DNA of 64,000 nt, taken from NCBI RefSeq assembly GCF_019649055.1, contig NW_026570222.1:3720001-3784000 (forward strand), read 5' to 3'. How positions within the stretch are numbered: position 1 is the first letter of the stretch; each line of letters starts with the position of its first letter. This document shows positions 1,269 through 4,200 of this stretch, piece by piece. Position numbers and translations under genes: made by a program. The notes beneath the pieces were generated by a model. That model ran no database searches and was not told the DNA's origin. It saw nothing but the letters and a program-made list of their open reading frames with translations. This stretch comes from Paramacrobiotus metropolitanus (lineage: Eukaryota > Tardigrada > Eutardigrada > Parachela > Macrobiotidae).

Positions 1269-4200
1269 ATGGAAAAGGACGAATTAGTTCAGCGTGCAAA
1301 GCTGGCCGAACAGGCTGAGCGCTACGATGATATGGCATCGGCGATGAAGAACGTAACGGAGCTCGGTGTGGAGCTGAGCAACGAAGAAAGAAATCTCCTG
1401 AGTGTTGCCTACAAGAATGTGGTAGGTGCCCGTCGTTCCTCCTGGAGAGTCATTTCCTCCATTGAACAGAAAACTGAGGGATCCGAGAAGAAACAGCAGA
1501 TGGCCAAGGAGTACCGCGAGAAGGTGGAGAAGGAACTCCGCGAAATCTGCAATGATGTCCTGGTAAGTTGGACCGTAGTAGGTATAGTACAAAGTTGCAT
1601 TTTAAAGCTTTCGAGTGGATCAGGGCGGATGTGGTAGTTGTCCCTGTAGCGGCCTAAGCAACCTGACGTAAGCAACTCCCACTGTTGCATAAACAAGTTT
1701 CGGTAAACAAGTCATGTGTTGTGAAATGACTATGAAATATACGACATGGCAGATTCGTAGAAAGAAAATCCGTTTTCATTTATTTCGGGTGGGAATGTGT
1801 GAAATTGAGACTTTGGATACTTTCGCCTTGGAGCAGTATTCGGATCCCAATTTCGGTGTGAACTCTTACGGATCAATGTAGAGCGTTGCTGATGTCACGA
1901 TTGGCGTAGGATACTATCGATCGGGTTAATGAGTAATCGCAGGTTGGCAGTGTATCGTGACGGGTTGATAAGGATTTCCACTTGGGTGCCGGGTTCGTGT
2001 TAGCCGTGTCAGACAGCAGCGCGCTCTGTAAGATACTTACTACCGAAGCAGTCATATCCTCTTGGAAAGCTATATATTTTATCCGGTTTGGGAAAGGGTC
2101 ATAACATCGCTACTGCTTAATGTGATTTGGCTCCACCAAGCCATTTGAGTGGATATTTCATCCTTTTTACGCGCTACGTAGCAACATAAAAGTGCAAGAT
2201 GTTGAATTTGCGCCAGCTTTCAAGAAAAAATCTATATAAGCGAAGACCAATGAACAGCAGGTCGTAATTAAGGAAGAGGATTTTCACAATGTTTGAGATA
2301 TTGCAGAGTTATTGTTTCAAAGTACGGTATTTCCTCGAAATAGAATAATTATTATTATTGATATATATATATGTATGTTCATAACTTACGTTTCGTACGT
2401 GATTGATTTTAATAATTAGACCGATTCTGTTATAAATATATTATGCGTTATTTTAATTTGTGTCTGATCGTTGTATGGTAGGAATTATAAAAAATAGCTG
2501 GTTTCCAGTGCGCGGACTGGTATACGAGTTTTGAAGGTTAAAAGATTGTTCCTGGTAGGATCACTTGAGTATGGGTAATGAGTATGCAGAGACGCAAGGA
2601 CCGAACTGTAGTCCTGCGAGATATAAAAGAAGAGTACGAGGTTTCTTTCGTGATGATGTTTAATATTACACTGACTGTATGAAAGTTGGCACTGTTTTGC
2701 ACTTTCGTTTGAGTCGACTGGTCTTTTAAAAAATCACATGGCGTTTTATTAATAAGGTGATACAAAAGAAATCCGGGTATTTATTGTGTTCAGTGCCAAA
2801 AAGATTGGTTGCCTTGGACAATCATAATATTAATATCTGTACTTTGCTTTGAGATGTTAACGAATATCTTCGTAGTTTTTGATAACTTTTTTGCAGGGTT
2901 TGCTCGACAAATACCTCATCCCCAAGGCCTCCAATCCCGAAAGCAAAGTTTTTTACCTGAAAATGAAGGGTGATTACTACAGATACCTTGCAGAGGTGGC
3001 CATCGGCGATAATCGAAACAGTATGTGATTGTTTGTGATTTTATGTGTTGTACACACAGCGTATGACGTATCCGTTCCCATATATGTGGCAGAGGCATTG
3101 GGTAGTGATTGTGAACGCGGGACTTTGCTGAGCAACATTATTCCTGTTATAATGTTGCCGGGTACGAAAAGTGTTCAGTGTCAGGTCTCTCATAAGCGTA
3201 AACTAAGTGCAACCGAACGGAGTGCTGTGTGTATGTGAACCGTTTCATCCCCCTGACATTAACGGTCCTAGAAATTGTTCGGGTGTATCGATTGGTTTGT
3301 GACTTGCATGTGAAGCAAGGAAATGGGATGAAAGGGTTTTCTTTCTAGCACACAGGGATCAGCTAAGCATGCGATCAACATGGAAATGAGGGACATGCAA
3401 TACAGACGTAGGGTAGCATGCTAAGGGTTTCCTTCGCTTCCTAATTGCCTCCGCTTTAGAAGTTTTGTATTGTGAGATCAGCTATAGCTGGTATTAATGG
3501 CTTGGCAAAATGTGTCAGCTTGTCATTAAGGTGCACGAGCTTGGGTGGAAACCTTGAACGGGAGATTTTCCGATCTGATATTGAAAAAGTTCGGCTTTTT
3601 TAATTCCCGCTTTCTAACTTCGACCCCACTAGCCAGTGATTTTATCAGATCGTCGTAAATGGATAATTACTCCGTTGTGAGCGGTTTGAGTGTGCGGCTC
3701 TTTTTTACGCATTGTATATAATTTTAATGAAAGCTGACCACTCGCTGACAGGTGTGATAGATAATTCTCAAAAAGCCTACCAGGATGCGTTTGAGATCAG
3801 CAAGAGCAAAATGCAGCCAACACATCCCATACGCTTAGGACTGGCTCTAAATTTTTCCGTGTTCTATTACGAAATTCTCAATGCACCCGACAAAGCCTGC
3901 CATTTAGCCAAGCAGGTAATAAAAATAGGATTAGTACTGAATTAACTAACCGTGTGTCTTGTGTTTGTGCCTGCCCCCCGTAGCCATCGTAGAAACCTCC
4001 CAGAAGGCCTACCAAGACGCGTTCGACATTGCCAAGAGTGAGATGCAGCCCACGCATCCTATCCGCCTGGGTCTGGCCTTGAATTTCTCAGTATTTTATT
4101 ATGAAATACTGAATTCACCAGACCGTGCCTGTCACCTAGCCAAGCAGGTAATCCTCGTTGATCCAGTACGCTCCCGGTTAAAGGAGCAGGCCAAATGGAC

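Follow-up and report, generated by a model that had tools for sequence, protein, structure and literature searches.

In a 64,000-nucleotide stretch of the genome of the tardigrade Paramacrobiotus metropolitanus (hereafter the window) we found a 14-3-3 zeta gene in which one segment of the protein is encoded twice, by two adjacent exons of 164 nt each (A, 3752..3915, and B, 3984..4147), which are very likely mutually exclusive and used one at a time. We favor the reading, to which we assign a probability of roughly 0.6, that these constitute a functional pair whose joint inclusion would be prevented by crowding of the exon B branch point against the exon A donor, with mRNA decay acting as a back-up, and whose products would differ in their control by the kinase JNK. 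The pair is a variant of a known splicing arrangement with one clear functional lead, namely residue 184.

Structure and identity of the gene

The gene lies on the + strand. Its first coding exon (1269..1562) was defined by translation from the ATG at 1269, and contains a match to the Pfam 14-3-3 model of 125 bits (G000:C2:3721296-3721562). This is followed by a constitutive exon of 124 nt (2897..3020), which is the upstream partner of both A and B, and, in the splicing model, by an intron of 731 nt (3021..3751) 5' of exon A. A and B are separated by an intron of 68 nt (3916..3983), and an intron of 146 nt (4148..4293) connects exon B to a constitutive exon of 96 nt (4294..4389), the downstream partner of both. 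The last intron of the gene, with a length of 63 nt (4390-4452), provides an in-gene control for short introns, and the last coding exon with the stop (4453..4512) was again delineated by translation. The 124-nt and 96-nt exons are supported by translation and Pfam matches, and exons A and B additionally by comparison. Both alternative exons are directly preceded by AG and directly followed by GT, are entered after one base of a codon (A/GT or A/CC, the slash marking the junction) and are left at a codon boundary (AAGCAG/gtaat); upon splicing and translation, a protein of 245 residues is obtained with either of them. The coordinates of the 164-nt pair in the preliminary description, along with its equal phases, similar protein products and 68-nt intron, proved to be exact. 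A search for a third copy of the exon came up empty both in 1563-5200, where the best remaining hit had an e-value of 0.21, and in the whole window. The exon sizes of 124, 164 and 96 nt are presumably also those of human zeta-type genes, and the exon borders thus look ancient.

Judged by its sequence, the gene is a 14-3-3 zeta, with the full 14-3-3 domain, a zeta-type sequence and the phosphopeptide groove. The Pfam model matches exons A and B above its cut-off with 84.3 and 83 bits respectively, and the top PDB matches of the protein are zeta chains (among the 60 listed of 123 sequences). At nine residues of the groove the protein is identical to the PDB zeta chain 1a37, and three of these lie inside the alternative segment. 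The genome searched (G000, 169.8 Mb) has the content expected of a tardigrade, in that a Hypsibius protein of the tardigrade family CAHS matches it at 20 places (best e-value 3e-69, 65% identity). It yields 15 Pfam 14-3-3 matches, and the alternative segment is present in two copies in the 14-3-3 zeta gene and one in an epsilon-like gene on C14. Two divergent 14-3-3 copies were seen at G000:C301:20980-21513 (L001) and G000:C78:564073-564690 (L002), with identities to zeta of about 51% and 43%, respectively; in both the match runs on without an intron, and the match on C301 is interrupted by a stop codon. We considered these copies as fossil mRNAs that could reveal the exon used, and rejected them as such since they are equally similar to A and B and the exon is not assignable. 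In the proteome of another tardigrade, Milnesium, 14-3-3 was reported by two peptides, neither of which, in the part of the report available, falls within the alternative exon (PMC2835947).

Both copies of the exon are conserved as coding sequence

Exons A and B are identical at 118/164 bases and specify the same residue in 45 of 55 codons, the boundary codon included; 18 codons are identical, 27 show silent differences and 10 change the residue. The differences affect 33/55 third codon positions, compared with 13/110 at the first two positions taken together (Fisher p = 3e-10). Such a pattern would not be expected of a copy released from selection over so long a span, which indicates that A and B are both old and have both been kept as coding exons. 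By NG86, dN is 0.107 (dS not computable), and 10 of the 16 comparable four-fold sites differ. The possibility that only one exon is used, the other being a decaying duplicate or a rare cassette, is opposed by this strong concentration in third positions and by the intactness of the frame, the splice sites and a 21-residue stretch in both copies, and we regard it as highly improbable. Likewise, duplication through haplotypes or assembly does not seem to account for the pair, given that a single contig contains both copies, separated by 68 nt and divergent in 28% of their bases.

Joining A to B results in a stop at codon 197, as had been anticipated in the form of a frame-shift on double use, and omission of both exons results in a stop at codon 142. 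As the exon length of 164 nt is not divisible by 3 and both stops lie upstream of later junctions, decay of either mRNA would be expected. The mutually exclusive use that had been proposed for the pair thus appears well supported by its anatomy together with the coding selection on both copies.

The intron between the exons and proposed crowding of the branch point

The preliminary description had further suggested that the short intron may itself block the joining of both exons. As a matter of length this fails, because introns of 54–70 nt are ordinary in this genome: 13 of 61 introns estimated from exon-by-exon Pfam matches in chaperonin and myosin genes (all 61 under about 600 nt) are ≤70 nt, and the last intron of the 14-3-3 zeta gene itself has 63 nt. 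The idea is plausible as branch-point crowding, and a block to joining would hold at most in this form, with a branch site predicted from the sequence. To place the intron in context we used 51 models obtained from 52 chosen introns of chaperonin, myosin, kinesin, ABC-transporter and 14-3-3 epsilon genes, a set that was picked for shortness and whose borders were derived from frame and site consensus. DEAD-box genes offered no short intron to add to this set; the strongest DEAD-box helicase match, among the 36 scored of 117 genome candidates, is situated in the window itself at 16475-16963 (G000:C2:3736475-3736963).

Counting adenosines no closer than 10 nt to the acceptor, the last one in the A-B intron is base 34, which occurs in a CTAAC motif (3946..3950) that is the predicted branch site of exon B, and the 32 nt before the AG are free of adenosine. 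Given this, an adenosine branch point would lie ≤34 nt from the exon A donor; it should be noted that branch points other than adenosine exist. The last usable adenosine is located ≥41 nt from the donor in 33 of the 34 other modelled introns of ≤80 nt, the sole exception being a doubtful model of a 48-nt intron, and the same rule holds for 26/26 of these short introns with a model score of 3 or more. The adenosine-free stretch before the AG reaches a maximum of 24 in all 51 modelled introns, compared to 32 here, and of the 6918 AGs in the window, counted over the two strands, only 3 are preceded by such a stretch of 32 nt, the exon B acceptor included. The AG-free zone of 47 nt is unremarkable, being exceeded in 13 of 51 introns and measuring 61 in the last intron of the gene. 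Branch motifs appear to be degenerate, with CTRAY found in 3 of 14 intron models (2 of the 14 having been read on the wrong strand), and the shortest well-scored introns, of 54–56 nt, would leave ~34–36 nt between donor and branch point if the latter lay 20 nt from the AG.

In the mechanism we propose, the branch point of exon B would be the CTAAC at 3946-3950 or a site 5' of it, no more than 34 nt from the exon A donor, and the resulting crowding would make A unjoinable to B, such that the donor of A is left to pair with the 96-nt exon (4294..4389). An A+B product that leaks through would be removed by nonsense-mediated decay. The choice itself may fall at the two acceptors. In the 20 bases immediately 5' of the AG there are 10 pyrimidines at the exon A acceptor and 15 at that of exon B; with a mean pyrimidine fraction of 0.59 in the other introns, the exon A acceptor is within the usual range and weak only relative to B. 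The more pyrimidine-rich acceptor of B might, rather tentatively, be taken as the likely default.

Other means of enforcing exclusion

An alternative is that the frame and nonsense-mediated decay by themselves enforce exclusion, with all four splice patterns being formed and the A+B and skipped products destroyed. Such a scheme is favored by an exon length that is not a multiple of 3 and by the early stops of both wrong products upstream of later junctions, but it leaves the 32-nt adenosine-free tract and the position of the last adenosine at base 34 unexplained. We view it as unlikely, though deserving of some weight, as the entire explanation, and frame and decay as probably acting as a back-up.

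A second alternative is docking/selector RNA pairing between introns, which, as far as the accessible text of the reports goes, has been described for insect 14-3-3 zeta, with a docking site located downstream in the fly gene along with selectors (PMC6071210, PMC3923563). We searched the three introns for long duplexes, local helices and selector-like repeats, and in this one species none was significant against shuffled sequences. Duplex z-scores for the three intron pairs were 0.71, 1.04 and -1.59, values reached by 149, 174 and 17 of 200 shuffles, while the scores of local helices were reached by 498, 227 and 55 of 500 shuffles. The last value in each series belongs to the A-B intron paired with the intron after B and represents a weak signal in favor of docking; for the introns 3021-3751 and 4148-4293, the observed local score was reached by 498/500 shuffles, which speaks against it. 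The test is a weak one of low power, being confined to one species. Taken together, we consider pairing of this kind improbable as the basis of exclusion here. Exclusion through U12-type donors was also examined: by eye, the donors GTATGTGA, GTAATAAA and GTAATCCT do not appear to fit the U12 consensus.

Effect of the exon choice on the protein

Residues were numbered according to the PDB zeta chain 1a37, which we take to be mammalian and which aligns with no offset. The ten residue differences between A and B map to positions 140-144, 154, 156, 159, 184 and 187. The preliminary description had proposed that such differences could tune partner binding, and this required refinement. The groove residues inside the alternative segment (173, 176 and 180) do not differ between A and B; the other six of the nine lie outside the alternative exon and are alike by construction. 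The sharpest of the ten differences is at residue 184, which is alanine in A and, in B, serine followed by proline; the mammalian serine at this position is a JNK site. In the available part of the literature, Ser184/186 of zeta and sigma is described as a JNK target whose phosphorylation releases Bax (PMC8455551).

The isoforms would hence share a common phosphopeptide groove under different JNK control. Given that exon A carries Ala184, choosing A would give a 14-3-3 without the off-switch at this residue, with B keeping Ser184-Pro. It is likely, to the extent that such residues predict regulation, that exon choice determines whether this hub protein is JNK-deaf (A) or JNK-releasable (B). 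The Ala/Ser difference gives the exon choice a testable meaning, in the form of client release by a stress kinase in a stress-surviving animal.

Origin of the exon pair

The alternative exons of the fly 14-3-3 zeta gene probably cover the same protein segment as the tardigrade pair. This raises the alternative that the pair descends from an exon duplication common with insects, a single event before the panarthropods split, which would be compatible with the mechanism favored above. Beyond the alternative exons reported in the same gene in the fly, it is supported by comparisons with the nearest solved sequence, the zeta chain of PDB 6nyb (chain C), which is presumably of insect-cell origin: exon A is 89% identical to this chain as against 82% to exon B, as an old split would allow. 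Against it, there are only ten differing sites. At these the 6nyb chain agrees with A six times, with B three times and with neither once, and a mammalian zeta chain agrees with A and with B four times each and with neither twice, counts that do not decide between shared and independent origin. Furthermore, if the exon borders are ancient, as the human exon sizes would have it, repeated duplication of the same exon would be easy. We therefore treat a shared origin as a serious possibility that falls short of even odds.

Contigs of viral and prokaryote genomes, when scanned at the protein level, contained no detected relative. A scan with the DNA pattern returned one contig each in the viral and prokaryote sets (L009 and L010), which on inspection of the alignments look like other 14-3-3 types. 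The former is an IMG/VR 'viral' contig that carries the 3' part of a 14-3-3 gene at 28-291 and is probably a mis-filed eukaryotic contig. The latter (JAIYDP010000280.1, from a Verrucomicrobiaceae pond MAG) carries at 6274-6960 a 14-3-3 gene of eukaryotic type that seems to be interrupted by a short intron, and the contig is hence probably eukaryotic contamination. Our literature search, as far as the texts it covered go, returned no report of mutually exclusive exons in a tardigrade 14-3-3 gene.

A bolder proposal combines a duplication of the tardigrades' own with a different lock, namely crowding rather than docking/selector RNA. The pair would then amount to a splice-controlled JNK switch in 14-3-3 zeta, the JNK-deaf A form keeping its clients under stress, for example on drying, and the B form being JNK-releasable. 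In its entirety this is speculative and rather unlikely. Were it true, interchangeable exon copies would have been gained in one hub gene in both tardigrades and flies, possibly with different locks, and nature would have provided a test of how repeatable the evolution of splicing is; a task that mammals divide between separate zeta and gamma genes would be handled within one gene through splicing.

A second candidate cluster in the genome

Three copies of the segment encoding the ATP-binding P-loop (GESGAGKTENTK), with tails that are all different, were observed on the minus strand in a myosin heavy chain gene (G000:C37:796716-797616, L071). These copies are probably another mutually exclusive cluster in the tardigrade, a prediction made from the arrangement of the segments. 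A paper on myosin exon clusters makes no mention of tardigrades (PMC3912159).

Comparison with known systems

A close parallel is Drosophila 14-3-3 zeta (leonardo), for which the accessible parts of the reports describe three isoforms (LeoI, LeoII and LeoIII) generated by alternative splicing, of which LeoIII has the narrowest distribution, in mushroom-body neurons (PMC3795638, PMC3364263), and list a cluster of 3 mutually exclusive exons (PMC6071210). The gene is the same, although there are three copies in the fly and two in the tardigrade window, and the docking/selector pairing reported for exclusion in the fly was not found in the tardigrade introns in what was a weak test in one species. 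In terms of the proposed lock, the human gene OGDH offers a likeness: the available part of the report on its exons 4a/4b indicates that branch points 25–41 nt from the donor enforce exclusion, with a proposed threshold of about 50 nt (PMC7969005). There the branch point of the downstream exon lies near the upstream donor, as is predicted for the tardigrade gene (≤34 nt if it is an adenosine), whereas the intron differs in length, with 118–131 nt in birds and mammals and 68 nt in the tardigrade gene. The alpha-tropomyosin exons likewise have a branch point close to the upstream donor; in both OGDH and alpha-tropomyosin these sites have been mapped, whereas the tardigrade site is a prediction. 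More broadly, the accessible portion of a survey assigned potential steric interference to 57 of 629 human clusters (PMC5740500). With respect to the product, the counterpart lies in the mammalian zeta and gamma proteins, where the position equivalent to 184 is Ser-Pro in PDB zeta chains and Ala-Pro in PDB gamma chains; in mammals the two states belong to separate genes, whereas in the tardigrade they are offered by alternative exons of one gene.
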